DNA of 64,000 nt from Macrocystis pyrifera (lineage: Eukaryota; Sar; Phaeophyceae; Laminariales; Laminariaceae), in the NCBI GenBank assembly GCA_031763025.1, contig JASSKH010000003.1:620001-684000 (forward strand), read 5' to 3'. Made by a program: the position numbers and the translations under genes. The notes beneath the pieces are model-generated. The model searched no databases. It worked only from the letters and a program-made list of their open reading frames with translations, and was not told the DNA's origin. Every line of letters starts with the position of its first letter. Positions within the stretch are counted from its first letter, which is position 1. Shown here piece after piece: positions 6,356-50,210 of the stretch.

Positions 6356-6462
6356 ATTACGGGGGACCATAGTAAATGGGACAAAGTTTTGTTAGTAAAA
6401 ATAGGGAAATATATAGGTTTTTGTGTATACCGTAGGTGCTATTTACTATGGTCCTCCGTAAT
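6356..6462 (-). mobile_element. 107-bp MITE, copy 1 (reverse orientation)
   Basis: The ends are ATTACGGGGGACCATAGTAA and its inverted partner ending CCTCCGTAAT. The interior is the reverse complement of the other copies (GTTAGTAAAAATAGG...). It has the same 107-bp length as the other copies and TA-rich flanks. It is non-coding. Confidence 0.85.
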
Positions 6463-6612
6463 TGATCTCTGTTGCATCTGTATCGATTTCCAAATGCAAC
6501 CAACAACCTCTCTGATTCGTAATCGACACAGCATCGCGTTACCTTGTTTCACGAAAAGTTGCCCACACAAATATGAACTACAACAAGCCAATCGCCTGCT
6601 GGAAACATATGA

Positions 6613-6745
6613 TTTTTTTTTTTTTCATCATCACTTTTACTTTTCAGCCCAACTCGCAGGAGGTTTTACCCTCGGCGATATTCTGGACAAGCCGTGGTCA
6701 CAGGTGTCGTCCCTTTTTCCCCCCCGGTACGTGCCTTTATTTTTT
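6613..6745 (-). mobile_element. SINE-like repeat with T-run, copy 1
   Basis: A run of T is followed by CATCATCACTTTTACTTTTC, then a block containing TTCTGGACAAGCCGTGGTCA and a C-rich run. The same sequence appears in the opposite orientation at 31111-31268, where it ends in poly(A). A poly(A)-ended interspersed repeat in either orientation points to retroposition. Confidence 0.6.
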
Positions 6746-6861
6746 GTCGCGCATAGGGTTCAGCATTCTCACTGCTCGTTGATTTTCATCGAATGTAGCT
6801 AACTCAAGCTCTCGCGCTTTCCGCTTATCAGTTTTTTATGCAAGAAAAAGTCCCTACGAGT

Positions 6862-6942
6862 ATGCGCTCGGTGAGACTTGAGCCCACGACATTGATCTTG
6901 CTGGGCTCGCGGAGCACCTACCAAGCCACCAGGGACGCCGGC
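6862..6942 (-). repeat. tRNA-derived fragment (SINE head or tRNA relic)
   Basis: Read on the minus strand, TGGCTTGGTAGG resembles an A box, and GGGCTCAAGTCTC, about 30 bases further on, resembles a B box. The arms do not fold into a complete cloverleaf, so this is not called a functional tRNA. Nearby (7185-7215 and 7267-7300) is an inverted pair of T-arm-like segments around GAGTTCGATTATCGGC and GAGTTCGATTCTCGGC. Confidence 0.4.
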
Positions 6943-7577
6943 ATATGCACGAAAAAAACATCGTTTTTTCAGTACATCGCCAAGGTAAAACGGCATCCTT
7001 CGAGGCGGTTAGACCGGATAAGCCACTGCCCAATGCTGCTTAGTCAGCGCTGGCTGAATGGTCTACTTACCACTTTGTGAGTTCGACTGGTCTCGGCGTT
7101 GATCTCGGAGGCGATCCCCTCGCCACGCGCTAACGGTCAGAAGAGAGGAATTCACATTACCCTTTTTTCTCCCCTGGAAAAGTTGATGATCGCCGATAAT
7201 CGAACTCACGCATATCATTGATTGGATAGAAGGGGAAACCAAGGCTAGCACATTGTCCAGTATAACCATTGAATGGTATGCGTGAGTTCGATTCTCGGCT
7301 ATTTTTTGCAGGTGGGAAGAAAAAGGGGAAGATAGTTTCTTCTCTTCTGACCAGTAGCGCGCGGCGAGGTGTTCGCCCCGGAAATCAATCCCGAGACTGA
7401 GTCGGATTCACAAAGCACATACCCAGTTGGTTAGGAGGAATCCTACTACTAAACTACTCAGTCAGCGCTGACTGATTGGGAAACTAAGAGTAGAATTTCT
7501 CTTAAAAACCAATTGAGACTCATGGTATGAATATAATTTAACCAACAATCAATAAGAAAAAAACATACCTGACTTAC

Positions 7578-13917: not shown

Positions 13918-14112
13918 TATCCGGGGAGCCGCTGGCCTATATCTTTGACAAGGAATCAGATATAGAATACGCGCGTTCGGTTTATCACAATACTTGTAAA
14001 ATTCGGTAAAAATGGAATATATACGAGACGTATTACGTAGCTTGCAAAGTTGAGTATCAACTATTTAATCAGTCGAACTCACAGCTGACGTATTTCAAAA
14101 ATTATAAAAAAA
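13918..14112 (+). repeat. Interspersed repeat, ~195 bp, copy 1
   Basis: Starting near GGGGAGCCGCTGGCCTATAT and running through AGTTGAGTATCAACTATTTA, this stretch recurs with few differences in inverted orientation at 25393-25611, inside intron 1 of the bZIP gene. No terminal repeats were recognised, so the type of element is not known. Confidence 0.75.
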
Positions 14113-17236: not shown

Positions 17237-17277
17237 GAGACGAAGCAGGTGGGGGGGGGTATTCGATATCAGTCAAG

Positions 17278-28957: not shown

Positions 28958-29581
28958 ATGGCAGCCATGGCGAGCAAAGAGAAAGAGTTCGCAACGAAGC
29001 TCCATGAGGCGCAGGCAAAGCCTTTTCTCCGAGTGCTTGGTGAGTGGCTGATGCATCGCTGTCTCGACCCGAGTGCGGTCTGCTGTATCGCGGTACTTTA
29101 GCATTTCGGTGTGTATCACACGCACAGGATCGCGGGTATGATCTATACGACGGAACAAAAGCTTTTTGCACGACCACAAACACCCAGCATGAACATATTA
29201 ATAGTAATCTGGGATGGTGGTATGCACGAGACGTATACTCCGATGCTGCCCACAAGCTGCAGGGTGCTCTCCTCGACAGCGCTGATGTTCGTCTCTTGTT
29301 TATTTCCGCGTCTTGTCTCTGCATAATTGACCGCTTGGCTCGCGGCAGTCACTGGTGGGGCCGGGTTCCTTGGATCGCACCTCTGCCGGCGGTTGTTGGA
29401 CGAAGGCCACCAGGCAAGTGACTACAAGCTACAATAAACTAGAGTTAGTCTACAAAATGTCTCTGCTCTCTGCGACACCTTGCCGTTGGTTCAGGCGTTT
29501 CTTAAACGTGGCGCTACTCAGACACCACAATAATGGATCCACAATCCGCGATACTACTGCTGTGGAAGCTGCTGCTAATAA

Positions 29582-29626
<45 letters not shown>

Positions 29627-31238
29627 GGAACTCGTACTGCGTACCTTGTGTGGTACATACGTAGAGAGCTGCTTCGTACTTGGTACCTGGTACCAATACT
29701 CCTAATCCTACTGCTGTACTCCGTACGTATGCTTTGGGGATGGTGAGTTGCCACTTGCCACTTACCACCGAAAGAAGCCCCCTTGCTATTGTTAATAGTA
29801 GTTACCAGTTGGTTGTCAGTGCCTCGAAGGCAGGGTGTCTGTGTTCTGTGTGGGTTGTGTGCTAGTAGAGCCAAGTATAACCTGGTCCATGCTGCCAGGT
29901 ACCTGCTGGTACCAGTTACCTGGTACGAGTACGTGAGTCCGGCTCATAATCATGCCCCGATTGGTGTACGTAGTCTACCCTGGTGTTACCACTGCAATCC
30001 CGTTTTGGGGACAAACCACTTGGAATATGAGAGGTTTGGCCCCCAAAGGGATCTATTACTATTAATAACTGACTGACTGAATGACTGACTGACCGACTGC
30101 GCTACTTTAACCCCTTTAGAACTGCAGTCCCGATTTGGGGACAAACGACCCTAATTCTATCTACTTTTCACCCTAAACGGGACTGCAGTCCTAATAAATG
30201 GGTCAATTATTAATAAATACCTACTACTGGTGTAGTACTCTGCGGACTTCAGAGGGGAAAAATGACGATAACAGCGCGAGTGGCGGATGATACAAAGTGT
30301 GTTATCCTTCACGGTACTACAATAGTATTGGTAGTTGCAAGCAAGGAAGGTGGCTATTAATAGCTATTAATATTAATAGGTTACAGTATACCCGCAATGC
30401 TGGGCGCTTACGCTGCTCGAAGACGGTTGGTATTATAGCATTACACCCAAGGTATGATTGGTTTGGTTGCTACCTGCTGGTATCTTCAAACAACCAAAGG
30501 GGTAATTACTAACTACTGCTGTAGTAATTACCTGGATTTGTGGTTAATTGTGTTGTTCCTGCTCGTTTGTCTGTGTTGTTGGTATTACGGGGGTCCATAG
30601 TTAATAGGACCTATGGTATACATAAAAACCTATGTATTTACCTATTTTTACTAACAATTTTTGGTCCTATTTACTATGGTCCCCCGTAATAGTATATATT
30701 CGTACACAGCAGCAGCTGCCGTGTATGTTGTTTTTATGTTATTTCTACCCAACCACGGCATCCAGCACGCCGATGTGTCGAGCACACCCACTGCTGTGTG
30801 GCAGTTACTGACTGACTACTTTTGAGGCTCCTTGCTTCCTTTTTACAGTCTACGGAGATGCGTTACATACAGACAGCAGCAGTATATATGATAGTGGAGC
30901 GGTGCAGGTGGTAGACCGAGAGTACCAGGTACATACGATATCAAGATACATGCATCCGAAATCGGAAATACGTGTACGAGTACGCACATACAGCATACGT
31001 AAACGACATTCACAAATGAAATGCCAAATACCTGGTATTGCACAGCAGAAAAGCAGATGTTCCCAGTACCTGGGAGAATAAAATGCCAAGAGTTTCACAG
31101 ATTAAGATGCTCCCAGCGCGATAAAAACCAAAGGCACGTAACGGGGGGGAGAAGGGACGACACCTGTGACCACGGCTTGTCCAGAAGATCGTCGAGGGTA
31201 AAACCTCCTACGAGTGGGCTGGAAAGTAAAAGTGATGA

Positions 31239-31269
<31 letters not shown>

Positions 31270-33922
31270 TACCTGTACAGGTAGTGGGAGTGACTGGTGA
31301 AGTAAATGAGAGAAACAACTTGGGGTACTTCGTGTACTCGTAGTATACTCGGAGTATGCAGTATACAGGGAGCATTTGTGAAGTGGAAGTAACAGCATAC
31401 GTACCGTAGTTCTAACGAAGTATCCGGACGGAAAATTCTGGGCAGTTTCTTCTCACTCTTGTCGTGGTCCGCACGCCAGTTTCGGGCCGTTTTGGGCATG
31501 GGCGAAGGTTAGCGTGTAGGGGTTGGGTTGGGTGTAGGGCCGTTCCTTCACCGCACCTCTTACATGACGTACCATGTACCACTGCGTGGGGCCTGAACAA
31601 GGCGATGTATCATAGGGCACGGAATTTTCGACCACCCTTTACCGAAACAACGCCTTATTCGTGTTAGGGCGGTGGACGACCCTATTAAGTTAATGCAGCA
31701 TTTTCGTGTGCAGCAGTACGTATAGCAGCATGCGCCTTGTTTTTCTTCCTTCCCGTTTATCATCGTCGCCCTTATTTCTTCTCTGATCCGGGGTCACGTA
31801 GAACGCTCTCCTCCCCCCTCCCCACTACAGTAGAGCACTTCTGTTGTTCGTGCCTTTAGTAGTCATTATTAGTATCGCGAGAGAGAAGACTTGAGCCCTT
31901 TCTTCCCTCGTCGTCTATTACAGGATCGAAGTGCGCCTACCCATGCTACGCGCTCTCAGCATCTGATTTGTTTATGATTTTTGAAAGTAAAGAAACTGTC
32001 ACCAGTCACCACGGTGGGATTTTAAAGTCACGGAATCAGTCAACTCTACTCTAATAACAGCACTAATAAGACCATATACTGCTCATACTGCACTGCCGCG
32101 TGGAGGGAGATACGTGTGCTCGGAGAAGGAAAGTACAGCAGTGTTGCGGCAGTAGCAGTGCTGAACCCAGTGAATATGTGTGATGTCAACCACACACAAC
32201 ACCAGGAGAGTAGACGGATGCTCACTCACTTCTTTCTGCATGTTGCGAGTATACTATGTACTACTCATCGAGCTGCGTGCCACCGTGCCCGCTAAAGATG
32301 CACATCGTAATACTACTACAGCAGTAGCTGCAGTTTGGTCCGTCGTCCCTTCACCTTGCTCCCAAAGCGGTTATGAATCGATTAATGGTTTGTGCTTTGT
32401 ATTATATTAATGTATACCAGGTATATGTACCAGGTATAGCCTAAACTCTGACCACTCGCCGTTGATCATTCTTGGCTTGTATCACGGTGTGTATGACCAT
32501 ATGACACCCTTTTCAGGTGATCTGCCTGGACAATTACTTCACGAGCCAGAAGCTCAACATTCAGGTGTGTGGGTGTTCTTCACATTGAACCGTTCTTCTA
32601 CTTGCCGGCCGTCGTTGATCAATCAGTATATTAGTATTCGTAGTCATCGTCGCCAACCGCCGGATAAGAAATACCATTAAAAAATTCGAAAGCCTTGATG
32701 AGTGGTATTAATAGTTGACTGCGCTCTTTCCCACGTAAGAATTCAGTATGGGCCAACACTCCTGTTTCTCAAGATTAATATTATACTTTCAAGTACAGTA
32801 TGAGGTGCCCTGTTGTAGTCTAGGAAGTAGACTGCTTGTGGTAGACGTCGCATTCGAACATGTTGGAGACTGGACACAGGCATGCTTGCCTCTAGGACAA
32901 ACTCTACGGTATCAGTCTAGACCACCAGTATCATTTATATTCATACTTGAACTAATTGCATTCTGATTTCGAGTTGACCCCTTTGCGCGTTCCCCGCTGT
33001 TTTTTTGTACGCAGCATATTGTGGGTGTGCTGCTCTCTCTGTGTACCTTTGTTGTTTGTTCGGTTTGTGCCTCTGCTCTCACATTTTAGTTGCACTCTTG
33101 TTAATGTTTCGTACCTGTGATGATGCTTGGGGGCTTGTGGCGTTGGTGTTTGTGTGGCTATTGAGCAGGACCTGTTTGAACGGCCGAACTTCGAGTTCGT
33201 GAGGCATGACATCACCGAGCCCTTTCGGGCGGAGGTAGACCAGATCTACAACATGGCATGCCCAGCCCAGCCCCCCGTGCACTACCAGTACAACCCCATC
33301 AAGACTACCAAGGTGCGAACACAGCTGACTTGGCTGCAGCGCTGAAGCAGTATATAGCTGCAGTCCGACAGCAAATAATGGCACTGCTATTGGTTCGTAT
33401 CATGTGATGCACATATTACATCCCTGATTACGACGTGACACACGACAGCCTTATCAAAGTGACAGGATATAATTACGTGATTTGTTTCGTTTTTGTTCTC
33501 CTTCCCGTTTATTGCCTTCGCCCTTGTTTTCTCTGTCCCTCTTAGCCCTAACTCAGATCCGGTGTGACATAGACATGGTGTAGCATACATAGCAGGCTCT
33601 CCTCCCCCCCACCACGGTTCGTGCCTTCATTTGTGATTATTATCTTCCCTCGTCAACTATGATACAATTTTAGCGTTGAATTACCATTTATTGCATTCTA
33701 CGTACACTTTTTTTGTGACATTGTCGCTCCTATATTCAACGTCAGTTGGAATTGCGTGGCGCTGAACCCTACCGGCATTGCAATGCTACTATTACGGGGG
33801 TCCATAGTTAACAGGACCTATGGTATACATAAAAAAACTATATATTTAAGTTTTTTTACTAACAATATTTGGTCCCGTTAACTATGGTCCCCCGTAATAT
33901 CAATAACAGGACAACAGATACG

Positions 33923-33966
<44 letters not shown>

Positions 33967-36900
33967 CTCACATTAACTCATGGCCACAGTACAAACAGTA
34001 CAATGCAATCCGTGGTCGCAGGACAGGCTCAAATAACTCTGTCTGGAGTGGAAGAATACCTCTGTACAAAATAAAAGAAACTAATCCCAAAAGAGATACA
34101 TTGTAACATACAGTAGTAAAGGACAACAATGCCGCTGACGTTCGCAAGTGAACTCTAGTCCACAAGAACCTTTTAGAAGGTCGAACTGCCTCCAGCCATC
34201 AATCCACCAGTTGCTACTTGACAACAAATAACCAGTCAGTAGCGCCAGAAACGAACGGTGATTCATAGGGCAGGGCCCTGTCAGCTCTAATCGGTACAAT
34301 ATGTACTGGCTGCGTCAATTGCCAGTGCACTGGGCCCGAACGGTGTACTGTTTCGGCGAAACCACGACCACTTGCCCCGCCCGGCTGGCAAGAGGACCTC
34401 ACCGGGGGCGCCCCCGGAGAACCCCCCCTGGAAGCGCCGTTTTTATTCTCGATATGATATGGCTTCACTATAAAGCCCATAAGGCTTTAATTTGCGTCAG
34501 GTTTCATATGCAATTTGTGGGTTGGCGGGATGGTATTATTGTCAGACTGATTGATTGGCCCGGGAAAAACGAGAAAAAATCAGATGAAGCATACCGTGAT
34601 GTGGTGGTGCAGGAGTGTACGGTAGACTCCGCACTGCAGAACGCAGCCTGGATAACGTGAAGGTTGGGATAAATATGCGCCTTTTCGTGTGCCCGAAGAC
34701 GGAAAATAAATAATTCACTTTATTTCCAGTACGAATTAATTAAATCCTAGTAGCCGGCACAGCTTCCACACCAGCAATGGGAGCAGCAGCGGGGCTCCTT
34801 GGCTGGCTCCTTCCGTAATTCGGCAGGGGCTCGGCCCCAGGGACGCCGTCAGGGTCCGCAGAGCCCATGCCATCAGTGGCTGAGGTAGCTTCCTTCGTCC
34901 ATCACTAGCATCACTAGCATCGTGCTCACGGTCTCCCTCCCTCTTTCCCGCTCTCTCCTCCTTTTCGCATACTCTCCCGGTACCCGGCGTCCGGCGCTGT
35001 ACTTTTTGAAGCGTTTCTGTTGTAGTTTTCTGGCTTTGCCGTGGAGCGTACGTAAGTCGTTAGTGTACTGGCAGCACTGGTAGCCCCCTTGGCCAGTACC
35101 CTGGTACAGCACTGGCGGTCCATACTGGACCATGGCCCGGTTCTGGTGCTTGACGTTTGACAGAAGTTACTGACTCGAACGTAACGAGACGTTCTACGTA
35201 AGTATTGCAATGCTTGTAAAACGAGATGAAGCGCGAGTCTTTTGTTTTCGCTCATTAGGTTAGGATTATTCGTTCATCAGGGTTATATTCCTCTCAAGCA
35301 CTCCAATGCAGGCGGTTGGGTTTGGGGTTTTGAGTCCGTAAATGCAAGATGCCAATCCTGGAACACCGATCAGGACCGGCTCCCGCTATGTGCAGGAGCA
35401 GCCTGCACCAAACTCTGTGCAGGTCGAGTGTCGTGTGTTTCAATCTTGCCCGTCGGCCCAGGCCAACCCGACCCCAGGCCTCGCACTAGCCCGAAGCCCA
35501 ACCCTTTGCTGGGCTCGAGGTCGGCAGGGGCAGTCACGCGGCTCCGCCGCGCCGAGTGTTTTCTTGGCGTTTTCCACAAAACTTCGTGCGGCCGAAAGAC
35601 CGGCCTTGACCAACAAGACCCGCATGCTGTACAAAGTTTTGTGCAGGCCGCTCCTGCACACAGGTCGAGTCATCAGGACTCATTAATGTTTCAACCACTT
35701 GGATTGGCATGCAGCGGGACCGTCAATACCCAGCAGTAGTAAGTGTTGCAGTAAGTATTGCATATTCGGGTAAGGCGATGACTACTGGTACTGCTGGGTA
35801 GTATTGATAACCTACAGTAGTGAAAGTTTAAGTTTGTGTATGTTGGAAAGTCAACCTTTCCACACATAGGACAGACAGACCAGATGGACAACTCCCACTT
35901 GATGATGGATGTCTTTCAAGGCAGATCGATTCCCGATCTTGAATGGTTTATAGCTCATTTTGCGGAGTGGGACCCCTGTAATCTGCATGATCGAGCACAT
36001 GTTTCATGGGTTGGATCTGTACTGTTCAGACATGGCCTGTAAAACCTCTCACAATGGCAGCTGATGAACTAGATGATCGATTGCTGTAGATAGATAGATC
36101 ATGATTTGTCGGACGCGTTTTGTCCTTTCCGTACATGGTATCGAATGCGTTATGCTCTCCATCCCCTGGCATCTCTGTGTTTTTGTACCATGTACTACTG
36201 TGGTATTTTTTATGCTGATCCTGGAGGATTTTTTTTCCGACGTATTTACAGTGTTACACAGAGTATTGTACCTGGTATCGATAAATACATTTTACGTAGC
36301 ATATCGATATATCAACTGGAATACCTGCACTTCAGTATACCGCTCTGGCCGGGAATATAACCTCCGTTTTGTACTGTGAAAAGCATCAGTACTATTAATA
36401 TCAATATATTAAGAGTATCAATGCTATTAATAGTATCAGAGTCCAAACGGTATTTTATGCGGAGACTATTAATAGTATCATGTTTTGTTTTTCGATGGTA
36501 CCGAATTCGGTTCTCGTTCGCTACCCATCACTTCATAGACTCCTATATCTATATAAATATACCTGGTATTTGATACTTGTATGGTATACTACTCTACGTA
36601 GACGGAAAGATAATGGTCTTCATATTTCTAACCCAGGGGTAATTACCTGGTACGTTTTCGGTCGCAGCGACGACTCGTTGCCACTGACGCGAGGCATGCT
36701 TCAAGGCAGGCGGTTCTATAACAGCCATCCAAGCTAACGCCCTCGAGAGTACTCCACGTGTACATATATACGTATATACTGTACTCTATGTGTACGTATC
36801 GTATGCAAACGTCTTTGGGGCTGTTGCCGGAGATTTCGATTCCGCAGTCTTGTCATAAGTGTGCCCACAGTCGGGAGTAGTCGAGGGTCTCCTCCGTCAA

Positions 36901-39900
36901 CCACTCCTTTTTTTTTTTTTTTTTTAACGTTCTAGTTATGCCTCGGCCTTATAGCGTGGTCGCTTTGAGAAACAAGTTAAAGAATGTGACGGCTGCATGG
37001 CCAGATGCATGCCCACAGGTGTCGTCACGCCCTTCAGCTCTAAGCTCCCACTTCCAAAAATATCAAGGTGTCCCGGCGTCAATTATCAATCATCAATCAC
37101 GACACGTCCGTGTACCTGTTCGACCGTCCACAACAACATGGCGGCATCCTCTATGCCTGAGACCCCACCCTACTCTTCTCCTGAGATTCGGGGTCGATGC
37201 CCGTCGTCGCTTCCTTTGGCCCCCCCTACGAGTATGCGCCTCAAGCCTCCCTCGGCCTACTTCCGAGCTAGACGATGATGCTCGAACCAGGGAACTCGCT
37301 CCTAATTTGGTCTCCCAACGGGCCGGTCAGGTCCGCCAGAACCGTCTCTCGTGGGATCCCAACCTGGTTTCCCAATATAGGTATTGTCCTCGCTTCCGCC
37401 GGTGGCAGCGGTGCCCTGGAGCGAGAGGATCGTTTCATGATAGCCATGGGCGGAAGCGAGGACAGTGTCCCCTGCCATTGGGAATAGGGATGGAATTCCG
37501 CTTGAGGTTGTGGTGGTTCTTACTGGCTGGCCCGTTGACAGACCCAATCAGGAGTGCGTTCTTCGTTTCGATCATCATCTTCAAAACGGGAGCGGGAGGG
37601 AGGGAGGGAGGGAGGGTTGCCATGGTTGCCATGGTTGCCATGGACGAAAACGAGGAGAATGCCTACTTTTGGTGGGAACAGGGTTGGGGGGAACAGGTTA
37701 TGGCTTGCTTCACCGGCCGGTTTTTGGCACAACGAGAGAGGAGTGGCTTCCCTGAATGGAGCATCGTCGCCCAGCTCGGAAGAGGGCAAAGGTGTTGGGT
37801 CGGCGGAAGGCACGTTCTTTTTTAACAGCCGCCACGAAACTCCCCACGCTGTTGCGGGGGGGGGGGGGCATAGCAATACACGGTGCCAGGTATTACTTAA
37901 TATTGCATATTAATGGTAATCAGACCACACGACGGGCCGAAAAACCATGTATCCCCTTGATGTTTTTACACCCTAATTGTTTTATGATTACGATATTGTG
38001 ACCACTACCCGCAATACTGTATGAAATGAGGCTACCGAGGTCTTGCCGGATCATTACTGCAGTTGACTGTCAATGCGTTCTACGAAGCTCTCGCGCGAAA
38101 TATTCTGGACGATACTAGAGGTGTCTGGGTCACCAATCACGAAGCGCACAACTTTTCGCGGGACTCTTGATCTGTATCCGGCCTCTTCATATGCGCTGGG
38201 CCTCTTGACGTGTTTTCAACCTTGTTTGTTAGAAGACTGCACGTGCCGTTTTGAGTCGGCTTGCAATGCACAGACTGCTGTGGACTGTAGACCGCGATGG
38301 ACCCTGTGCCCTGTGAGTGGATTGCTGCCGTTCATTGCCTGGTGACGGTCGAGTGTTTTGTAACAGGTCCACGTTTTGTGCCAGGAAAACGAAAAGCATT
38401 CCTCAGCAGTGAAACTGTGATTCGATCAGGTTGGACTTGTCGCCCTCGATCACGATACGGTTTCAGTCGATACTGAACCAAATTATGTGGCTACAGCATG
38501 AAATATTCATACTATTTTCGGCCTATCGGACCTCGGCTTCTTACATACGGATCTCGGCCCATCGTAAGGCCGAATACAGCATACAGTTTACAGCACCGAC
38601 ATCAGCGTCCGCATTAATTCGCACATCCACACTCTCCTCTGTCGATGGCTACGTCCTCAACAGGTACACACAATCCATCCCCCATCCCATCTCTTCCATT
38701 GTATCCCATTCCATCCCATGCCTTCTCATCCCAGCCCTTCCCGTTCGATCACATTCCATCACATCACATAAGATCCCAACCCAACCCACCCCACAGCCCC
38801 CCATCCCATTACATCTCACTTCATACCAACCCATCCCACCGAATCCGTCCCCATGCCATCATATCCGATCCCATCCCATGCCGTCCCATTCCATGCCATC
38901 CCGTCCCTTCCCTTCCCATAACGTCACATCCCGTCCCATGCCATGCCGTTCCATCCTATCCCATAACATTCCGCCCGGGCACATGACATCCCATCCCATG
39001 CTCTTCTCCCATCCGAATAACATCCTATCCTATCCAACCCCCATCACATGCCATCCCATCCCATCACACAATAAATAACATATGCGGATGCCGCGTGCTC
39101 TCCCTACTTCGTACCAGGTATACATTATACGTGTATTATGGTTAATGTTCAGCAGGTACCAGATACCAGATACCAGATACCAGACGCATTCTTTGTTGTT
39201 GTTGGGGTTATGTCTGTACTGCCTACGATGACGATTAATATTAATAGTGCAAACCAAGACGTAGTGCGGAATTTGCAAACCTCTTCAATTTATTGCAAAT
39301 CTTCTTTTGTTTGGTGGCAACGTTTTTATGTACCGTCACAGGTATCGTTCTTTGGTGCGATGAACATGCTCGGCCTGGCCAAAAGGGTGAACGCGCGCAT
39401 CCTCCAAGCGTCGACGAGCGAGGTGAGGAGTATGGAGGGAGCGGGAGAAGGGGGGGGGGGGGGGGGGGGGGGGGGGGTCTGTTATGGGATGTCTGTCCCG
39501 TAACGGTTGAACTCTAATGATTCGGGCTTGTCGCCGATTTTAAGAGGGTTGTGTGATTGACTCGACTCAGACCGATTGCTGCACTCGGTGAGGGCGGTGG
39601 CAATGGATCGCTGGCACCACGCGGACGATTTTTTTTTGCCGCTTGCTTCAATCCGGTCCTACTACTGCTACGAATACTATTAGTACTATTATTGTATCTG
39701 CTAGTGCTACTACTTCGTGCTTCTACTATTAATACTACTGTACTATTACGGGAGTCCATAGTTAACAGGACCTATGGTACACACAAAAACCTATATATTA
39801 ACCTATTTTTACTAACAAAATTTGGTCCCATTAACTATGGACCCCCGTAATACTATTAAATCTACTATTACTGTTAATAGTGTGACAATATTTGAGTAGT

Positions 39901-42900
39901 ACGTGTGCCGTGTGTCCCGATTTATTACAAATGGGAACATGGCTATTAATAGTTACTTGCGGCATCGAACATTACCGCGTACCCCCCCCCCTGAGTGCTC
40001 CGCCTGGAAAGGGATGCGTGCTCAATGGTCAAATAGCTGAGGCAAGCAACAAATGAGTACGCCCCCCCCCCCCCCCCCCCCCCTCAGTGCCTTAGCGTAA
40101 ACTAGGTGTGTCTATATTTGGAGTAGGAACGGTGCTAGGAAAGGTGCTAGGAACGGTGCTCCTTCTCCAAAGGGATGCGTGGTCAATGCTCAAATGACTA
40201 AGGCAAGAAACAAGTGAGTACCCCCCCCCCCCACTCGACGCTCGCACACACCCTTGCTTGCTTACTTAACGTTGTCTGCTTCAAGGTGTATGGGGACGCC
40301 CAGGAGAGCCCTCAGACGGAGTCTTACTGGGGCAATGTGAACTGCCACGGTAAGACTGCTAACGTTGACATTAAGCGCTACAGTATGCTACACTTGTTTC
40401 AAGTCGTTTGTTTCAAGAACCGTGGGTGCGCTTCTGAAAACGTCAAGCTTGCCAAATTTACGCCGCTCTCCCATGGAAATAGTGTGGGACAGTATTTTCA
40501 GTATTAGATTGATCATAAATAAATGCTATATTGCTATGACGGGCGACGATAGTAATCAGGACCCATCATCTACACAAAAACCTATATGTTGCAGTATTTT
40601 CTGTCAGCATATTTGGACCCGATTACTATTTTCCAACGTAATGTTATTAGTAGTGATGATAAAAGGGTCACCCTTGCCCTTGGTCTCTGCCATACTTGCA
40701 CCAAAGTGTGCACGTGCATTGTCATCTGTTACCGGTATGTGTTTTGTTTTTCGATGTACTTGTCGTGTTTCCTTCTACATTGTGGAACGTTGATTGAGTC
40801 CTCGGCTGTTAGATTTTCGGCGATGATTAATATTCACGAAAGCAGCAAAAGCGACAATAATACAAGCAGCCATAGCACTGGTCGAGCATTTGCCATTGCC
40901 AGAAAGTCCGTTAAGATTGGCGAGAGTTCACCCAACTTTTGCTCGCGCGGATCGGCGTTTGTTCGTCAAACACGTACGGTTATCCATGCCTACGTGGTAC
41001 TATTAGTAAAAGCTTGCAGCAATACTTTTAGAATATCTGTAGACTACTGTAATATAACTACAGCAGTAGTACCTTGTATTGCTAATACTACGGAGGGCTT
41101 TGTGTACCGGTGTATCGTACCGAACTCACATCATTATAGTATCCTGAGCGAGGTTTGCGACTATTAACCGCAATGCATCCGGTAGCCGTCTCACTCTTTC
41201 ACCAGAGTTTTTGTAGAACATTCCTTCTCAGTGCAAGATGTCCAGCCCGAGCGAGCGTTCCTGTTACTTCCTACCGGTGTTCAATATGAGAAAATGAAAA
41301 TAGTAAAATTGATGTCCTTTCAATCGACCAGGGCGGTTTAGGCTGTATCAACTGCTGAGAGCGCCTCGGGAGCTCCTCGTATAGTAGTAGTAGTGTTATT
41401 GACGAGGCGAATCCTGAGAGCGCGTAGGGTGGGTAGACGCAATTCAACGCGAGTCGAAGAGGAAACAAAGGGCTGGAGTCTTCTCTGTCTTGTCTGTCGC
41501 GATAAAAAAGGGCGAGAGACGTACCGTCGTGGAGAGGGGGGGGGCGCCTGCCGTGTGACCGCGGATCTGACGTACGACTAGGGAGGGGGAGAAAGAAGGA
41601 CCGATATAACCAATTAACGGAATATATATATATATGTGTCCGTGGTGTACATGTAGATCTATGCTGCAGGCGTCCTATAGTATTCAGGTAGTGACACCAA
41701 GTGCTATTCCTTGTGTCCTTCGAATTGTCCGGTTTGGTGCAACAGGGGTCCGGGCTTGCTACGACGAGGGGAAGCGGGTGGCGGAGACTCTCTGTTTGGA
41801 TTTCCACCGTCAGCACAACATCGCCGTCCGCGTTGCTCGGATATTCAACACCTTCGGGCCCGGGATGCACCCATACGGTACGAGCAGAGTCTTATCAATA
41901 ATCCTATCTAACGGTCAGAAAATATTTCACGCCTCGGACATATCATGTACAGATCATGTACAGATAGATCATCTAGATCATTTAATTCCTCACCTGCCGT
42001 TGTGAGATGCTGTGTAGGATATATCTATCTATCTATCTGTACAGTACAGATCCAGCCCAGGAAACACGTGCTAGATCGTGCCAGTTGTACGACCCGGCGA
42101 CATGATGAGCTAGATATACAGATCGTCTGCCCTGAAAGATCTAGATCATCTGTATGCTCTATCTGTAGATGATCTGTCCAAGCTATGAGATCTTTTAGTG
42201 GTGTTCATTAGTAGTCTGGATGCAGCACGTATGATAACCCTTCTCCACAGTATTGGACCGTATTTAACATGAGCGCGCAGCAGAGCATGTCGTGTTCTGC
42301 GATACCAGGTACCAGGTATGATATTTCTGTGAGTTGATGGACGGGAGTGGGACCTCTGTTGTTGTTGCTCTCTTCTCCTCTGTGCGTTGCAGACGGTCGC
42401 GTGGTGAGCAACTTCATCATGCAGGCCTTGAGCGGAGAAGACATTACCATCTACGGGGACGGTGGCCAGACCCGCTCGTTCTGCTTTGTCGACGATCTCA
42501 TCGAGGGCCTGGTCAGGCTCATGAACAACGAGACCGAGGTGAGGTCAGCGAGTTGAAAAATGGAATCTCCCAACAATGTGGGGCTATCACGGAGTATGAT
42601 ACAATGAACTGAACGTGCGGTAGCGCATATACGAAGTACCGCTCAGGGGGAGAATAGTCTAGGATCTATCCACTCGCACGGAAAGCATGTCTCGTCTGGG
42701 TTGGTTAGATCTTTGCCGCGTGCGCGCCTAGGTTCCCGCAGTAAACCTCACCTTCTCCGTCTCTAACACAAGCTATTCGTCAAGTTGCGGGGGCTCAGCG
42801 GCCACTCCTGTGCTTCATGCGACCAGACGATGGTGATGAGCACACCCGGAATGCGTGGTGGCCACAAGGCAAAGGCAAGCACTTTCACAGCAGGGAAGAT

Positions 42901-45730
42901 GTGCCTGGTACGCAGGAACGATGCCGTCGTACTACTAATAGATACGGCCGCCACGACAGCAGCACGCAGCAGCACCTACGAACGAAAAGAAGAGCTCATA
43001 ATTTCAGAGTCGACTTCCACACTGGACACGCGTGAACACGCGAAGCCTTTCTCATAACGCTGAATTTAGTCGAGGACGTATAGTACCCTGCTTCATGCAC
43101 GAGTTTGGGTGCCTTACACATGGATCTGAGTGTCTCACAAGTGAATCTGGGGCTCTCGTCCAAAATCAGGATTTATGGGGAAGTGAGGCGTGCTGTATCC
43201 GCCAAGCAAAGCCAAGGGAGGGGCGAGAAGAACCGACCCGCGGGTCGGGTGGGTCATGACCGGTAAAGAGCACTGCTATTTTTCGTTTTTCAGCCGGAGA
43301 ATGGCACGTAAGAGACACGCCCATGAGGTTTTGACCAGCGGAACGAGATGATGCCCATGTACCCAGTCGGTAATCCTCTTTCCCCACCCCCGCCGCTGCT
43401 TTAATGGCATGATGATGCTGGGTATTTCCTGTTCAGATCGGACCGATGAATATTGGGAACCCGACCGAGTTCACGATCAAGCAGCTGGCGGAGATGACGA
43501 TCAGACTCACCAATTCCTCGAGCAGGATCATCTACAAGCCGCTTCCGCAGGTCCCGTATTTTTTTGTTGCTCGTGTTGTTTGATGGTTTCATGTAAACCT
43601 GGTTGGGTGTTTGTGGCGATCGGTGGGATGTCGGGATACATCTAGAAGATACTCACTGTAGATATGCACTCCGTAGCCGCTATTGTCAAATATTTCATTG
43701 ACCTTTTCGCGCTATAAAAAACCATGGCGCGGAGCATGTCACAGCGGACAGAGACGGGGGGTGCAAGCTGCTTTCAGACTCCGGATCTGTTACGACGAAA
43801 CAAGGGGCCAGTGTTGTAGGTATGGGCAAAACCTTGACGATAAAAAACGAAAGAAAATAGTGGCAGGCGTTCTTTTTATGCTTCACAAAAGGAAGGGGCG
43901 TCGAATCGCTTGGCGTCGTTGAAGCGAACTACTGCTGCTGCCCAGCAAGGCGACCGCTGTATCGAGTGCTGAAGCAAATATCTCTCTTCTACCTCCTGTG
44001 CTTTCCTCCCCTGCCTGCATTTGTGCCAATCAGGCGCCTACATGACCTCCCTCGCCCACACGGTCTGGACGTGTGGTTTGGTGTGCGTTCTACAGAATTT
44101 ATCTTTTCTCGTGACTGCAGTATGGGTCCACGTACATGAAAGAACCAAATGATAACATCAGCCTACGTAAGGCTTTGGGAGGCGCTGAGAATTTCTGATT
44201 AAGAGGTGGTGCTCACCGGCGAGCGGTACACGGAATCCATAATAGCTTGTGCTCAAGACTGCTTAAGGATGGTGTCGCCATAAGGTTCTAGGTTCTAAGG
44301 CTTGCTGATGCTACCGTGAGTCATTCTTGGTGGTGGGCGTATATTGAAAATAAGACGTTCGCATGTGCACATTTCACGTAGTGTTCTGTGCGGCAGCTGG
44401 TTTATTTTGCTCAGGCTCCTTCTCTCTTTTTCTCCCCCTTGATGATGCTGATGATGATGTTGATCTTGGGATGACCCGGTTGTGTTTCCTCGTTTTCCCT
44501 TGACCTTGATGATTACAATGTTGACGATGATGGCGATCTCAGGACGACCCTAAGCAGCGCAGGCCCGACATTTCCTTCGCCAGGGAGGCGCTCGGTTGGC
44601 AGCCGACGGTTGAGCTGGAAGAGGGCCTCAAGAAAACCATTGACTATTTCAGGTGTGATGATGTGATGGGCACAAGCAGTTCCATTTTTTTTTTTCGGAG
44701 CATCAAAAGCGAAACCGGCCCCTAGCATGGACCTGATTCTACAATGCCAAAGTCATATTGGGATATTACAGTACAGTAGTTGCGATAATGAAAGGCTTTT
44801 CGACCGAAAGAATTGTTGGTTTTTTACCTTTTTGGAGAAAACTGCAGCCCCGTTTTGCGCACAAAGCACTCAAACTCCATGCAGTTTGTCCCCGAAACCG
44901 GACTGCAGTACCAGAAAGGTTCAAGGAAGGGCACCACCGCGGTAAACAGTTGCAAAACCTCCACCATCCACCAAAGCACACAAGTTGGCGACAGTCGAGA
45001 ATGTCCTGCGCTCCTCGAAGTCCTAGCGACAGCTATTATAATACTAGTATGGTAGGGCGGGGCATACACTCTCGCCCGGAGGGAGAGGTTAGAACGGAGC
45101 AGGAGTAGGTAAGAGTGCCGCGTGTCCCGCCGGACACAGCGGGGAATGGTGCTTCCTTCCTTCCTTCCTTCCTTATTTTCTTTCTTCCGGCTAGCTTTTT
45201 GTTTTTGTGTTCGGTGACAATGTCTTGACTTCGTGCTGGCGTCCGTGTTGGTGTTGCTGTCTGTGCTCGTGCAGTAATGTCGCCTGTTGGGTCTGTTGAT
45301 ACGTTCAAGCCGCTCTACACACCGAACAACACCACCACACAATACGACACAACATGACACAACACGGCTTGCCGCGTGCTTGTACTCATTGATGGTCGGG
45401 CACTGATTGCGCCTCTTCTCGATGCCTTAAGCCTTCGCATCGCTCAAACTGTTGTAATACATGGGAAAATATTTATATTTGCTGGTTTTATGTATGTTTC
45501 GCCCCAAGGCGGGGGGAGTTGTTGGCACACCGTGTTTTTACGCCGCCCTGATTGATACCGAGCTCTAATCGATGTCCTTTTTTTTTTTTTTCCCTGCCCC
45601 CGCCCCGGCCAGCCAACTCGACATGAGGAACTTTAAGAAGCCCACCACGCACAACGCGCACAAGAATTCTGACAAGGACAGGGAGAGGGCCGTGTCTAGG
45701 GCTGCCGCGCTCTCCACGCCTTCCTCCTAA
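28958..45730 (+). CDS. UXS: UDP-glucuronate decarboxylase (UDP-xylose synthase)
   Basis: It converts UDP-glucuronate to UDP-xylose using bound NAD. Eleven exons: 28958-29039, 29349-29413, 32517-32564, 33169-33312, 39342-39422, 40286-40349, 41746-41877, 42393-42538, 43437-43550, 44543-44652 and 45613-45730. They sum to 1104 bases, 367 residues plus TAA, with every junction in phase. Introns are GT-AG except intron 2, which is GC-AG (CAG/GCAAGT at 29414). This is a short-chain dehydrogenase fold: the NAD-binding motif TGGAGFLG is at residues 29-36, LDNYF at 53-57, RHDITEP at 77-83, catalytic STSE at 137-140, the Tyr-xxx-Lys pair in YDEGKR (Tyr167, Lys171), ARIFNT at 192-197, DGRVVSNF at 206-213, [15 protein letters not shown] in exon 8 and [10 protein letters not shown] at 293-302. 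There is no N-terminal signal or membrane segment, so it is a cytosolic form. Length matches plant cytosolic forms plus a basic 38-residue tail. The product feeds xylose-containing polysaccharides. Intron 4 is 6 kb and carries several insertions. Confidence 0.96.
29991..30050. repeat. Palindromic MITE (ACTGCAGTCC ends), copy b
   Basis: The left half is ACTGCAATCCCGTTTTGGGG, then ACAAACCACTT; a shortened right half reads GGTTTGGCCCCCAAAGGG. The right terminus is lost. In UXS intron 2. Confidence 0.65.
30121..30191. repeat. Palindromic MITE (ACTGCAGTCC ends), copy c
   Basis: It is bounded by ACTGCAGTCCCGATTTGGGG and CGGGACTGCAGTC, with a diverged centre. It lies 70 bp from copy b in the same intron. 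Confidence 0.7.
30584..30690 (+). mobile_element. 107-bp MITE, copy 2
   Basis: Starts ATTACGGGGGTCCATAGTTA and ends ACTATGGTCCCCCGTAAT: inverted repeats of about 28 bp. The flanks are TA. In UXS intron 2. Confidence 0.9.
31111..31268 (+). mobile_element. SINE-like repeat with poly(A) tail, copy 2
   Basis: From GCGCGATAAAAACCAAAGGC through TGACCACGGCTTGTCCAGAA to AAGTGATGATT, followed by about 30 A residues. It matches 6613-6745 in reverse and, in part, 49914-50000. The poly(A) tail at the 3' end is the signature of retroposition. No internal polymerase III boxes were confirmed. Confidence 0.65.
31735..31885 (+). repeat. Interspersed repeat, UXS introns 2 and 4 (first copy)
   Basis: The blocks CTTCCCGTTTAT, CCCTT, TGATCCGGGGTCACGTAGA, CTCTCCTCCCCCC and GTTCGTGCCTT recur in the same order at 33490-33650 in intron 4 (there TCAGATCCGGTGTGACATAG). 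By eye similarity is 70-80 percent. Type unknown. Confidence 0.55.
33490..33650 (+). repeat. Interspersed repeat, second copy
   Basis: Same ordered blocks as 31735-31885, with extra sequence between the CACATAG-like block and the C-rich block. In UXS intron 4. Confidence 0.55.
33791..33898 (+). mobile_element. 107-bp MITE, copy 3
   Basis: Starts ATTACGGGGGTCCATAGTTA, ends GTTAACTATGGTCCCCCGTA plus AT; 108 bp. In UXS intron 4. A (GTT)n microsatellite (33921-33966) follows directly. Confidence 0.9.
34402..34417. other. Perfect 16-bp GC palindrome
   Basis: CCGGGGGCGCCCCCGG is a perfect self-complementary 16-mer in UXS intron 4, surrounded by unique sequence. It could form a cruciform or a very stable RNA hairpin. 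Function unknown. Confidence 0.7.
35389..35660. mobile_element. Element with ~34-bp inverted ends
   Basis: TGTGCAGGAGCAGCCTGCAC at the left (continuing CAAACTCTGTGCAG) is matched in inverted orientation at the right end (CTGTACAAAGTTTTGTGCAG then GCCGCTCCTGCACA) with about four differences. The 272-bp unit is GC-rich in the middle. Only this copy was seen in the window. In UXS intron 4. Confidence 0.6.
36938..37825 (+). other. Long open frame over a direct and inverted repeat module (UXS intron 4)
   Basis: A 295-codon frame is open here, the longest in the window. The region consists of related ~110-230-bp modules: one on the plus strand near 37262-37440 and two inverted copies near 37420-37560 and 37562-37795, sharing TGTCCTCGCTTCCGCC, TCAACGGGCC-type and CTTCCGAGCTNGNCGA-type blocks. 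Peptides such as [12 protein letters not shown] (+) and [13 protein letters not shown] (-) correspond. No domain is recognised. It is bounded on the left by a T run (36908-36926) and on the right by a G run (37857-37868). It could be a decayed mobile element or a nested gene fragment. Coding status is doubtful. Confidence 0.35.
38660..39072 (+). repeat. CATCCCATCC minisatellite
   Basis: Some 400 bp of degenerate 5- and 10-base units (CCCAT, CATCCCATTC, CATGCCATCC). It lies in UXS intron 4. The open frame that crosses it (Pro, Ser, His-rich) is a by-product. Confidence 0.9.
39451..39477 (+). repeat. Poly(G) tract next to UXS exon 5 donor
   Basis: An uninterrupted run of 27 G begins 29 bases after the exon 5 donor (39423). 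Such runs are error-prone in assembly, and in RNA they can form G-quadruplexes close to a splice site. Confidence 0.9.
39745..39851 (+). mobile_element. 107-bp MITE, copy 4
   Basis: Starts ATTACGGGAGTCCATAGTTA, ends TTAACTATGGACCCCCGTAA plus T. In UXS intron 5, flanked by TACTATTAATA-type sequence. Confidence 0.9.
40001..40232 (+). repeat. Two homopolymer-flanked repeats (copies 2 and 3)
   Basis: GGGATGCGTGCTCAATGGTC (about 40010) and GGGATGCGTGGTCAATGCTC (40171) each continue into GCAAG(C/A)AACAA(A/G)TGAGTAC and a C run (40062-40083 and 40220-40232). They are tandem members of the family also found inverted at 17169. In UXS intron 5, just before exon 6. Confidence 0.75.
40536..40642 (+). 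mobile_element. 107-bp MITE, diverged copy
   Basis: Same 107-bp length and same order of blocks (GGACC..., ACAAAAACCTATAT, ATTTGGACCC, ...CGTAAT), but about a quarter of positions have changed, including in both terminal repeats. This is an old insertion in UXS intron 6. Confidence 0.7.
41928..42185. mobile_element. ~250-bp MITE (CTCGGACAGAT ends), copy b
   Basis: Starts CACGCCTCGGACATATCATG; ends GTAGATGATCTGTCCAAGC. The interior has GTACAGATCCAGCCC, CCCGGCGACATGATGAGCTA and GCCCTGAAAGATCTAGATCA in the family order. In UXS intron 7, starting 50 bp after exon 7. Confidence 0.8.
44841..44909. repeat. Palindromic MITE (ACTGCAGTCC ends), copy d
   Basis: ACTGCAGCCCCGTTTTGCGC at the left, CCGGACTGCAGT at the right. 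69 bp. In UXS intron 10. Confidence 0.75.
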
Positions 45731-45809
45731 GCATGGGCCATTGTTATTCTTAATAGTGATGGGACTACATTAGTGATAATTAGTGGCGATCGACTATTAA
45801 TAGTAGTGG

Positions 45810-46225
45810 CTATTGTGAGTGATCGACCTGCCGTGTGCGGATGGGATGGTTCGCGCCTCCTCTAGCCCGCTTGGCAACGTACGAGTACTGTACCGCTAGT
45901 TTCTTGAGAAAAGTCGATCCATCCATCAAGCAAGGTGGATCGATGTGCGTTGTGGGGGTTTTGACCTTTAGTAGTCGCCGTCGCTGCACGTGTTCCACCT
46001 GGTGATTAGTGATCGTAAGCACGTCTCCCTCCTAGTAAATACCCAGTATTCCTCACGAGTGATACAAACGGTCGTTCGGGGAGTGTCTTCGCCTACTCCA
46101 GCCCCGCTTGGCAACGCTCAAGGACTGCTGTAGCGTTTGCTCACTCGGAAAAGGTTTCTAGCCATCAAGGGTCGATCGATGTGCGCTGTGAGGTTTTGAT
46201 TTGGTGTTGGTTCGTCGTGGCTCGT
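45810..46225 (+). repeat. Diverged tandem duplication downstream of UXS
   Basis: Blocks at 45810-45985 and 46060-46225 share CCCGCTTGGCAACG, CATCAAG, GTCGATC..ATGTGCG and GTTTTGA in the same order, about 250 bp apart. It is an old direct duplication of the sequence just past the UXS stop codon. Confidence 0.6.
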
Positions 46226-48649
46226 ACAAGTCCGGAAGTAGTGCTCGGCGTGACAGTCAGCATTTGGCGTGCGCTCGTTCGATACGCGCAAGGACCTTGA
46301 TGGTGAACTCGCGGGTGTGGCTTGCCTCTTGAATTTAACGGCAATTGGGGCCTTCAGTTTCGTCTTGAAGGTGCTGAAGCAGGATAAGGGCGCGGGTTGA
46401 AAGCCGTTGCCTCGGGCTGAACGTGAGGTGGGTGGGTTGTTGCGAGTGGGGGGGGGTGGGTGGGGGGATTGGAGAAGCAATGTGCGACTCGCAAGTAGGG
46501 ACTGAGTCTTGCGCTTGCCCGTCTCGTCTCTTCTTGCGATGGGTTCCTGGCGTTGAGAAGGGTATTTCCTGTTGGTCAATGGTTTTGAGAGGAAGCTTCT
46601 GACCGGCAGGAAACACCTCATGCTGTACAGGCCGTTTTCGGGACAGCAGATGCAGTCACTTAGTTGCAGGGAAGCTTTTTGGCCACGTGTTTTGTTGTCA
46701 TATACGTATTCTTCTGTATTATCGTTTTGATCGGTGGTGGTAGGAGGATGGTTTTCGTTCTATTTCGCTTTTTTGTGTTTTTCGTGTTTTGTTTCGTCCA
46801 GTCGCGTTTGACGTCTGCCCTCTGTACTGCATTTTACACATCACTACGTAGTGACTACGTCACAAGCCTGTCCATTCACGTATATATCCTACAGTAGTAA
46901 CTATAGTAGTAGCACATCGCTTGGATCGACGCACATACAGTATCGTATAGAGGTAGCAAGTCGTCTGGCTTGAAGCGTTTATCTCTACTACGACAGTGCT
47001 GTTTTCGAACGTCTGTCGGTCTGCCCTCTGCTGTATTTTTCGCGCCTTTTCTGTTTGCCCAAAGCCAATGGTTTGCTGTGACGTAAGTTCACCCTCTATT
47101 ATAGTACTACTACTCTAGTAGGATAATGTTGTCTGGCTTGAGGGATTTCCTGTGCGAGTGTCTGTCACGCGTGCTCTTGTTTTTGGTGTTTGCGACGGGA
47201 TGCTTTTTCGCTCTTGAGAAGAAACGACTGCCCTTGGGAGCCCCTGCTTCGGCAAAAAAAGGTGCATGTCCAATTTTGGAGTCATTCTATCACAACAGGC
47301 AGTAGTATTATCGTAGGGTGCGAGTTGATTTTTCCCCGCTCCCTTGTTGTACGCATCAATCGCGTTCAGGCCGTTACATCAAACCGGCAAATACCGAGGG
47401 AGGAAAACCTGCATTTGTCTTGTTCTTGTGTGCATTGGATACGGATAGTAGGGTTGAACGACAACGACGGTGAGGTCTGTACCTTTTGATTGACTTGAGA
47501 CAGAGTCGCCGCTTGCTGACAAGTCTTGTTGTTTCAACAGTACGAAGTCTATTCATAATAATATTACACTGTAAGTGTACTGCTACTGCGGCGCGTGGAG
47601 GGCGGCCTTCTGCGTCAGATCACAAGTTGCCTTCACAGTACCACTATATAGGGGTAATCAAAGGCACCGTCATCGTATCATGATAAAACCACCGACCTGG
47701 GAAGGTCAATCGTTCACATGATCATCCGGGCTAGAAAGGACTCCTCGAATCGTGCCCGCATCTTTTAATAGATCAGTAGTAATGATCAGGTTGTCAGCTG
47801 CATCTATCTCCCTAAATAATCTTCCAGAGACGTTACGTCGGACCAATCGCATGCATACTCGTAGCTTTCACGTTCCACAAAGGAGAAAGTCTAGGCGTGG
47901 AGGGTGGGGGCGCTGAACGGTGCAAACGCTTGTCCCGTCGAGCGTGTTCGAGGCCTTGCCGCCACAAATAGGAGTCCTCATTTTGCATGTGCTTCTCCCA
48001 GCTTTTAGGTCTTTGTCATGTACGTACTATTATACTACCGTATAGTGCAGTGCCATTGAATGGCATTGCCATTGCCGTCCCCCAGGTGTTGCTTAACAGC
48101 AGTATCATTGCTTGTTCAAACGATACAAACGATACTCGCCGCAGCATGCCCCATTAGTTTAATAGCCTAATAGCCTATTGTAAGAGCAAGCCAAGTCCTG
48201 TCTTGCTCTTGGCGATACGCATTGTTCAACATCGCAGCGCAATAAAAAAGTCTGACAAGGCAATTCCGTAGCTCTGCTCCCACTCGGCAAATAACTAGAT
48301 CGCTCAATGTCATAATGGACGAAAAATAGAAATTGACGTCGAGCACCACCGCAAAAAAAAAAAAAAAGCTTTCTCATCATCAAACACACCCAGAAAGTGT
48401 CGAGCATCAGGTACGTTAGCACATGCATGGGGACACATGGCTAGCACCAAAGAGGAAACTCCGGCGAACAGAAATGAGGCATCACCTTGTCATATCATAA
48501 GCAATAAAGTAGCAATCCGTGCGTTCCACGTACAGTCACAAAATCAATATCCCCATCCTTTTAGCATCCCCACGAGAAGGAGAAGCGTCACCTTTGACCC
48601 TCTCCCGCTCTCCACCGACTACACATACATGTCGTTCGATCCCCCTTAA

Positions 48650-49735
48650 CTGCATCGGCCTCTCCACAAGCCCGATGCGCCGTAGCAACCACCCCGACGC
48701 AACCCAATCATACTGTTTTCGCCTGAACCTTGGCATATACAGCAGTAGTACACGTCGTAGCAATCACCCCGAGACCAGCCAATCATACTGTTACAACCCT
48801 GGGCAATCAGTAGAAGCCGCAGCAAACCACCCCAACGCACGCCAAGCCAATCGTACTGTAACTGCCTGGAGCTTGGCCTATCTATCAGTAGTAGATAGTC
48901 GTGGCAATCACCCCGAGGCGAGCCAATCATGCCGCAAGTGCCTGAACCTTGGCCTATCAGAAGCAGCCGTAGCAGCTACCCCGACGCAAAACATAATATT
49001 GCCTTACTCCTGACTTATCAGTAGAAGCCGTAGCAAACCACTCTTACGCAAGCCAATTGTACTTGCCACTGCCTGAACCCTGGCCAATATATCAGTATAG
49101 TAGAAGTCGTAGCAATCATCTCCAGGCGAGCTAATCAATCATCTCCAGGCGAGCTAATCATACAGCAACTGCCTCAACCTTGGTCTATCAGTAGAAGTCG
49201 AAGCAATCACCGGCAGGCGAGCCAATCATACTGCAACTATCTGAAGCTTGTCTCGTATATCAGTAGAAGTCGTCGCAAGCACCTCCATGCAAGCCAAAAA
49301 AATCTTGACTGCCTGAGCGTTGGTTGGCCTATGAGTAGAACCCGTAGCAAACGCCCCGACGCAGGCCAATCATGCTACTGCCTGAACCCTGACTGATCAG
49401 TAGAACTCGTACCGATCACCCCGACGCAGGCCAATCAGCCAGTCAGACTGCTTCCTTCAGAACCTTGAACAAACAGTAGTGGCCCCAACCACTCCCACGC
49501 AAACCGATCATGATGATCCTGCCTGCACCCGTCTTTCAGCAGAAATTGCAAACAACCACTCTAACGCAAGGCAATCAAAATATTCCTGTCTGCATCTTGG
49601 CGTATGATACAATTATACGGTTCCTGTCTGCCCCCTGGCCTATCCGTAGGAGCCGTACTGTAGCAGCCACCCCGACGCAAGCCAATCAAAATGATCCTGT
49701 GTGCAACCTGGCCAATCAGTAGAAGCCGAAGAACC
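48650..49735 (+). repeat. 1.1-kb minisatellite, ~70-bp unit
   Basis: About 15 imperfect copies of a unit of 65-75 bp. Consensus parts in order: ATCAGTAGAAGCCGTAGCAA, CCACCCCGACGCAAGCCAAT, CATACTGC and CTGCCTGAACCTTGGCCT. The units differ by substitutions and small indels, so homogenisation is not recent. Parts of two frames stay open over several units and give repeated peptides (RRSNHP-A-SY type on plus, MIG--RGDCY type on minus). These follow from unit length and are not evidence for a gene. Confidence 0.9.
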
Positions 49736-49913
49736 CCATGACCTTGCCACACACGCCTCTATCCCCTCGCGGTCTCTGAGGAGGGGCGTCAAGAAGGTCC
49801 GCGTCATCCACCTGCGGCGGTCCGCTGCTTATCGAGCGCACGACAAAAAAGGGCGCCAGATATAAGTTAAGGGGTGAGCAAAAAAAACATGAGGATAAGA
49901 GACAAACCAAAGG

Positions 49914-50000
49914 GCCTATTTTATTTATATTTACTCTCCAACTTTCTGGACGAGCCGTGGTCACGGGTGTCTGCCCTCCTCCCCCCCGGTCCAGTAATGC
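49914..50000 (-). mobile_element. SINE-like repeat, truncated copy 3
   Basis: TTCTGGACGAG-CCGTGGTCACGG and the following C-rich run match copies 1 and 2. The A/T-run end is replaced by TTTATTTATATTTACTCTCC. Confidence 0.5.
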
Positions 50001-50103
50001 CTTCATTTTCTTCAAAAAACCCTTTGGGAATGCAGAGGGGAAAAATGACGACTACAGCGGCGGCCACCGTGTGATTGGGGGGTGATGCAATGGTTGGTGT
50101 CCT

Positions 50104-50210
50104 ATTACGGGGGTACATAGTTAATAGGACCTATGGTATACATAAAAACCTATATATTTACCTATTTTTACTAACAAAACTTGGTCCCGTTAACTATGGA
50201 CCCCCGTAAT
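50104..50210 (+). mobile_element. 107-bp MITE, copy 5
   Basis: Starts ATTACGGGGGTACATAGTTA, ends GTTAACTATGGACCCCCGTA plus AT, with the standard interior. In the UXS to NUP35 intergenic region. Confidence 0.9.

Follow-up and report, generated by a model that had tools for sequence, protein, structure and literature searches.

The window analysed here is a stretch of 64,000 nucleotides from the brown alga Macrocystis pyrifera (GenBank assembly GCA_031763025.1, contig JASSKH010000003.1, positions 620,001 to 684,000 of the forward strand). It contains a gene for UDP-glucuronate decarboxylase (UXS) and seven related copies (five clear, one diverged and one relic) of a 107-bp repeat family. It is well supported that this family is an ordinary miniature inverted-repeat transposable element (MITE), i.e. 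a non-autonomous DNA transposon with terminal inverted repeats (TIRs). The features are listed in Table 1, and copies are named below by the position of their first nucleotide.

Table 1. Copies of the 107-bp family in the window, the UXS gene and the bacterial contigs that share the family. Flanks (left / right) are given in family orientation, and divergence is from a consensus built from 13 copies, with the relic left out.
Feature	Position or accession	Strand	Remarks
MITE copy	6356-6462	minus (family orientation)	107 bp; flanks TCA / ATA; 8.4% from consensus
MITE copy	30584-30690	+	107 bp; UXS intron 29414-32516; flanks GGT / AGT; 3.7% from consensus
MITE copy	33791-33898	+	108 bp; UXS intron 33313-39341; flanks ACT / ATC; 9.3% from consensus
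MITE copy	39745-39851	+	107 bp; UXS intron 39423-40285; flanks ACT / ACT; 8.4% from consensus
MITE copy	50104-50210	+	107 bp; located about 5.5 kb downstream of the last UXS exon found; flanks CCT / AGT; 8.4% from consensus
Old diverged MITE copy	40536-40642	+	UXS intron 40350-41745; flanks GCT / GTT; 27% from consensus
Relic MITE copy	53332-53443	+	about 112 bp; arms decayed; 31% from consensus
UXS gene	29348-44652	+	nine exons placed with a bacterial relative
Contig L002	JALZVB010000211.1		metagenome-assembled genome named Saprospiraceae
Contig L003	JALZVY010000069.1		metagenome-assembled genome named Phycisphaera
Contig L004	JALZWD010000061.1		metagenome-assembled genome named Flavimaricola

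Between 28-bp TIRs of the type ATTACGGGGGWCCATAGTWAA..., the element has an AT-rich centre of 51 bp that does not encode any gene. An earlier note on this DNA had described five clear copies with TIRs of about 28 bp. All five were recovered at the same coordinates, four of them being 107 bp and one 108 bp long, and their two arms agree at 24 (6356), 26 (30584), 26 (33791), 25 (39745) and 25 (50104) of 28 positions. A 17-nt end pattern, allowing up to 3 mismatches, matches the window ten times, at exactly the ten arms of these five copies, and shuffled sequences gave a mean of 0.08 matches and a maximum of 1 (100 shuffles). A profile built from the seven copies returned, within the window and at E values up to 10, only these seven and palindromic echoes on the opposite strand. 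The diverged copy that had been noticed at 40536 is real. So is the relic, whose start had been placed at 53348, a position internal to the span given in Table 1; it is matched by nhmmer at 53324-53451 (E 2.7e-26, with a model that itself includes the relic). Thus, the family has what defines a MITE: it is short, has TIRs and is present in several copies that share their ends, and a gene would not fit into 107 bp. The 13 measurable copies, including those found outside the window, range from 106 to 115 bp, and the relic is 112 bp long. In 97 of the 114 listed open reading frames of the window, Pfam searches recognised 11 families (E up to 0.01), and no transposase is named among them. In the window, Rfam gave no match at the gathering score and ARAGORN no tRNA; the repeats therefore match no RNA family at that threshold.

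The family is also found outside the window. The exact 20-nt end has no match in the viral contigs nor in the genome contigs, and a degenerate 19-nt end pattern has none in the viral contigs. This degenerate pattern matches three contigs of different bacterial metagenome-assembled genomes (MAGs) in a species-level genome collection. The 20,244 bases examined in these contigs carry eight copies (seven full-length and measurable, one truncated) that share the ends ATTACGG...CCGTAAT with the window copies, so that the further copies on which the earlier note had made its family depend do exist. L003 and L004 share further repeats with the window, and L002 shares the MITE alone. In L003, the MITE copies and the window repeats lie at the contig end; the G+C content then rises from about 0.5 to 0.65 near 1.8–2.0 kb, and bacterial genes encoding an aromatic aminotransferase and prfB are found past this rise. 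In L004, they also lie at the contig end and are followed by the bacterial genes prs (from 4184) and atpD, with a slighter G+C rise. This arrangement makes it unlikely that the bacteria of L003 and L004 themselves carry the MITE. The simplest reading is that the MAG contigs are apparent chimeras, in which host (algal) DNA was fused to bacterial contigs during assembly. The L002 copy and its short flank are located at the extreme end of the contig; the G+C content does not change along it, and bacterial genes encoding an XdhC-like protein and a TonB-dependent receptor lie deeper inside. By analogy with the two others, this copy is probably not bacterial either. The same three taxa are named in a bull-kelp microbiome study whose whole-tissue assemblies contained 39–50% kelp DNA (PMC9238374), and from which the three MAG accessions might come. 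A MAG study of Macrocystis gametophytes (PMC11556038) is not tied to these accessions.

The earlier note had taken the TA letters found at the borders as a hint of a Tc1/mariner or PIF-like transposase, and had proposed that a TA duplication be checked across aligned copies. The left and right flanks of each copy were compared for duplication lengths of 1–9 bp, the null being obtained by re-pairing the right flanks among copies. Twelve copies were used: the relic 53332 and L004_2677, whose right end is rearranged, were left out, and the eighth contig copy, being truncated, offers a single end. At 3 bp, 25 of 36 letters agree versus 19.3 expected on re-pairing (P 0.0002 with 5000 shuffles and P 0.0006 with 200,000 shuffles), and the pair is perfect in five of the twelve copies (ACT in three, including 39745, and AGT in two). 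Among the other lengths, only 9 bp falls below 0.05 (P 0.03), without any perfect pair. The 3-bp signal persists when the two copies inserted in GTA repeats are removed (P 0.004).

All 14 copies begin with A, and 12 of them end with T. Beyond the 3-bp flanks, T precedes the left flank in 10 of the 14 copies and A follows the right flank in 11. As the A and T at the ends are less variable than the bases outside the flanks, they look owned by the element. A 5-bp TANTA duplication was rejected, as the terminal A and T of the element would then have to differ from one target to another. Taken as a whole, the flank statistics indicate that the duplication is most likely a 3-bp ANT (mostly ACT or AGT), mostly located within a TANTA site. 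A TA duplication was the first reading, based on the border count and on insertions in phase within GTA repeats. It was dropped because the phase in GTA repeats cannot separate 2 bp from 3 bp, and because of the re-pairing test. The TA therefore looks like a part of the 3-bp ANT next to the A and T of the element, which argues against a Tc1/mariner transposase and for a PIF/Harbinger-like (Pangu-type) one; a PIF-like transposase had already been named as an alternative in the earlier note. More generally, TA at the borders can be misleading: here, the comparison between the left and right flanks of every copy points to another group of transposases.

The explanation that we favour, with a probability of about 0.68 as a whole, starts from features observed in this analysis (the copies, their arms, their divergence, their intronic position and the flank statistics) and can be viewed as follows: a transposase encoded elsewhere in the genome would bind both inverted ends, would excise the element and would reinsert it by cut-and-paste with a 3-bp ANT duplication (mostly ACT or AGT, usually in TANTA). 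Given such a duplication, this transposase would be of the Pangu type, within the PIF/Harbinger (PHIS) superfamily. The copies located in UXS introns would be neutral, tolerated passengers that are spliced out. Pangu elements (PHIS) are characterised by ANT duplications and by TIRs of 11–40 bp usually beginning with AG or GG (PMC4482050), and Harbinger elements with ANT duplications have been reported in Ectocarpus (PMC12477816). The kelp family resembles the Pangu and Ectocarpus ANT-type elements in its duplication, which is found statistically and not by empty sites (P 0.006 to 0.20 in subsets of copies), in its 28-bp TIR, which fits the 11–40 bp range, and in its brown-algal setting. It differs from Pangu-type elements in being non-autonomous and only 107 bp long, in its AT start, in that no transposase was seen, and in a target that looks narrower, mostly TANTA with C or G as the left N.

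Several of our own observations weigh against the Pangu-type explanation. The flank signal is modest and uneven, and nine lengths were tried: P rises to 0.006 when all 14 measurable copies are used, to 0.017 for the six window copies, to 0.20 for the six contig copies alone and to 0.08 when 6356 and 40536, whose odd letters match, are left out. Seven of the twelve copies have no perfect ANT pair, and two of the five perfect duplications (both in L003) lie within GTA repeats, which produce a 3-bp match in any case. Neither an empty site nor a transposase with the ends of the family came to light; in the window, these ends occur at the known copies alone, with no sign of the autonomous partner, encoding a DDE transposase and a second open reading frame, that is expected of Pangu. 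The TIR begins with AT versus the AG or GG usual in Pangu. Lastly, blastn alignments of 39745 and 6356 with L003 do not stop at the element but continue on one side for about 30 bp, at lower identity; the window stretches that are weakly similar to L003 beyond the element end are 39710-39744 and 6328-6355.

The family could instead be a Tc1/mariner (Stowaway-like) MITE, an alternative that we consider possible if somewhat unlikely. The TA of 12 left and 11 right borders among the 14 copies would then be a 2-bp target duplication, the element proper would be TTACGG...CCGTAA and the ACTAGT-like surroundings would reflect a target preference. Such an element predicts no copy-specific agreement of the flanks outside TA. 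Agreement was found at 3 bp, with odd letters shared by both flanks (G in 40536, A in 6356); it is on these two copies that the alternative gains ground, as the agreement drops to P 0.08 without them. Stowaway elements have the termini CTCCCTCC, and Tourist elements have GGG termini with a TWA duplication. Both resemble the kelp family in their size class, intronic copies, AT-rich centre and hairpin, but the kelp ends are unlike the termini of either. In the part of the Ectocarpus table examined, no DNA superfamily has more copies than Mariner-Tc1 (11,912), whose elements are mostly non-autonomous (PMC12477816). One of them, the 217-bp MITE TcMar-N1_Ec32, is likewise short, non-autonomous, brown-algal and present in many copies; compared by its description, it differs from the kelp family in length (217 versus 107 bp), and the kelp flanks favour ANT over TA.

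All four copies located in UXS introns (30584, 33791, 39745 and 40536) have the same orientation, 50104 and 53332 lie beyond the last UXS exon found, and 6356 lies ahead of the first. The UXS model lacks the first and last gene ends, and 29348 is the start of the match and not an exon border. One exon matches human UXS1 (PDB 2b69; E 1.4e-15), exon 8 ends at 43550 according to its junction sequence, and the junctions are GT-AG, except that the first modelled intron (29414-32516) has GC (GCAAGT) as its donor. The earlier count of four intronic copies in a single gene holds only if the diverged 40536 is included (three clear copies and an old one); 50104 would be intronic only if a further terminal exon lay beyond it. 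The exon-to-exon span represents 24% of the window and includes four of the seven copies (P 0.06) or three of the five clear ones (P 0.09), so that a concentration in UXS introns, as had been claimed, is not significant. In Ectocarpus introns, non-autonomous DNA transposons are common, and the intronic content of transposable elements is hardly related to expression, according to the paper cited above (PMC12477816). Within its UXS intron, copy 39745 is flanked by about 24 successive G (39454-39478) on one side and about 22 successive C (40062-40083) on the other, the two runs facing each other at a distance of about 580 bp.

As the earlier note had foreseen, the element can fold back as a hairpin RNA: six of the seven window copies fold far better than shuffled sequences (z −3.5 to −9.2; the relic, −0.85; 6356 was folded one base short). 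The UXS copies might thus be kept for a function, as hairpins of the sense-strand pre-mRNA that would be cut into small RNAs or would affect UXS splicing. The shared orientation of the four intronic copies goes in this direction, as does the slightly better match of arms from the same copy than of re-paired arms (56 versus 63 mismatches in 13 copies; 805 of 20,000 shuffles were as low). However, any element with inverted ends folds in this way, so that the hairpin does not point to a function. The agreement between arms is weak (mismatches were as few in 40 of 720 re-pairings for the six window copies, and in 40 of 120 for the five clear ones) and expected from shared ancestry, and the presence of four of seven copies in the UXS span has a P of only 0.06. 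Retention for function therefore appears very improbable. Even less credence, indeed next to none, is given to introner-like elements that would have created the introns. Four copies are intronic and bear TIRs, and the motif TACTAAC is conserved in all five clear copies, but the four copy-bearing introns are 863–6029 bp long with splice sites far outside the elements, none of the four copies spans an intron, and no gene was recognised around the three other copies. TACTAAC, the yeast branch-point consensus, is located at 30649, 33857, 39810 and 50169 (+) and at 6391 (−), these being five of its 11 occurrences in the window.

The pairwise Kimura two-parameter (K2P) distances among the five clear copies range from 0.08 to 0.18, with about 4–10 substitutions in each copy. 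At such a divergence, few indels would be expected in 107 bp, so that the constant length, from which a recent spread had been deduced, is no sign of a recent burst. The claim of a long-active family fares better, as both younger and old copies are present: clear copies diverge from the consensus by 4–9%, the seven contig copies by 10–13%, and the old window copies by 27% and 31%.

The Pangu-type MITE might even belong to a new lineage, defined by AT-starting ends, a narrow TANTA (TACTA/TAGTA) target, landing in GTA repeats and arms corrected stepwise towards each other, a proposal that we regard as doubtful. The letters at arm positions 11 and 19 are A,A in both arms of 6356 and 40536, T,T with A,A in 30584, T,T with A,T in 33791, and T,T in both arms of 39745 and 50104. 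When the contig copies are included (13 copies), the left/right states at position 11 are A/A in five, A/G in three, T/A in two, T/T in two and G/A in one, and those at position 19 are A/A in six, T/T in four and T/A in three. These graded states, less tidy with the contig copies and drawn from few and related copies, are only a lead. If the proposal were true, the copies could reveal how changes pass from one end of an element to the other.

In the literature examined on MITEs and Tc1/mariner elements in brown algae or kelps and on Pangu, the Ectocarpus paper alone deals at length with the transposons of brown algae; the family sequence itself was not searched for and may already be present in a repeat library. 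The family adds a short mobile element to the little-studied transposons of brown algae and, if the ANT reading holds, would show that the class reported in Ectocarpus also occurs, in the form of a MITE, in another alga.

Other repeats are found in the window. A second, nearly palindromic element (ACTGCAGTCCCGTTTTGGGGACAAA...) is present at 50703-50799, 30104-30193, 44841-44913, 4904-5003 and 29991-30042, as well as in L004 (2949-3045). The copy at 50703-50799 and that of L004 are bounded by TTAA and have CCCTT/AAGGG ends, as in piggyBac-type MITEs. In addition, 54496-55388 and 57561-58642 are duplicated stretches located about 3.1–3.3 kb apart that share 78–90% identity, with a Nup35-like exon between them.

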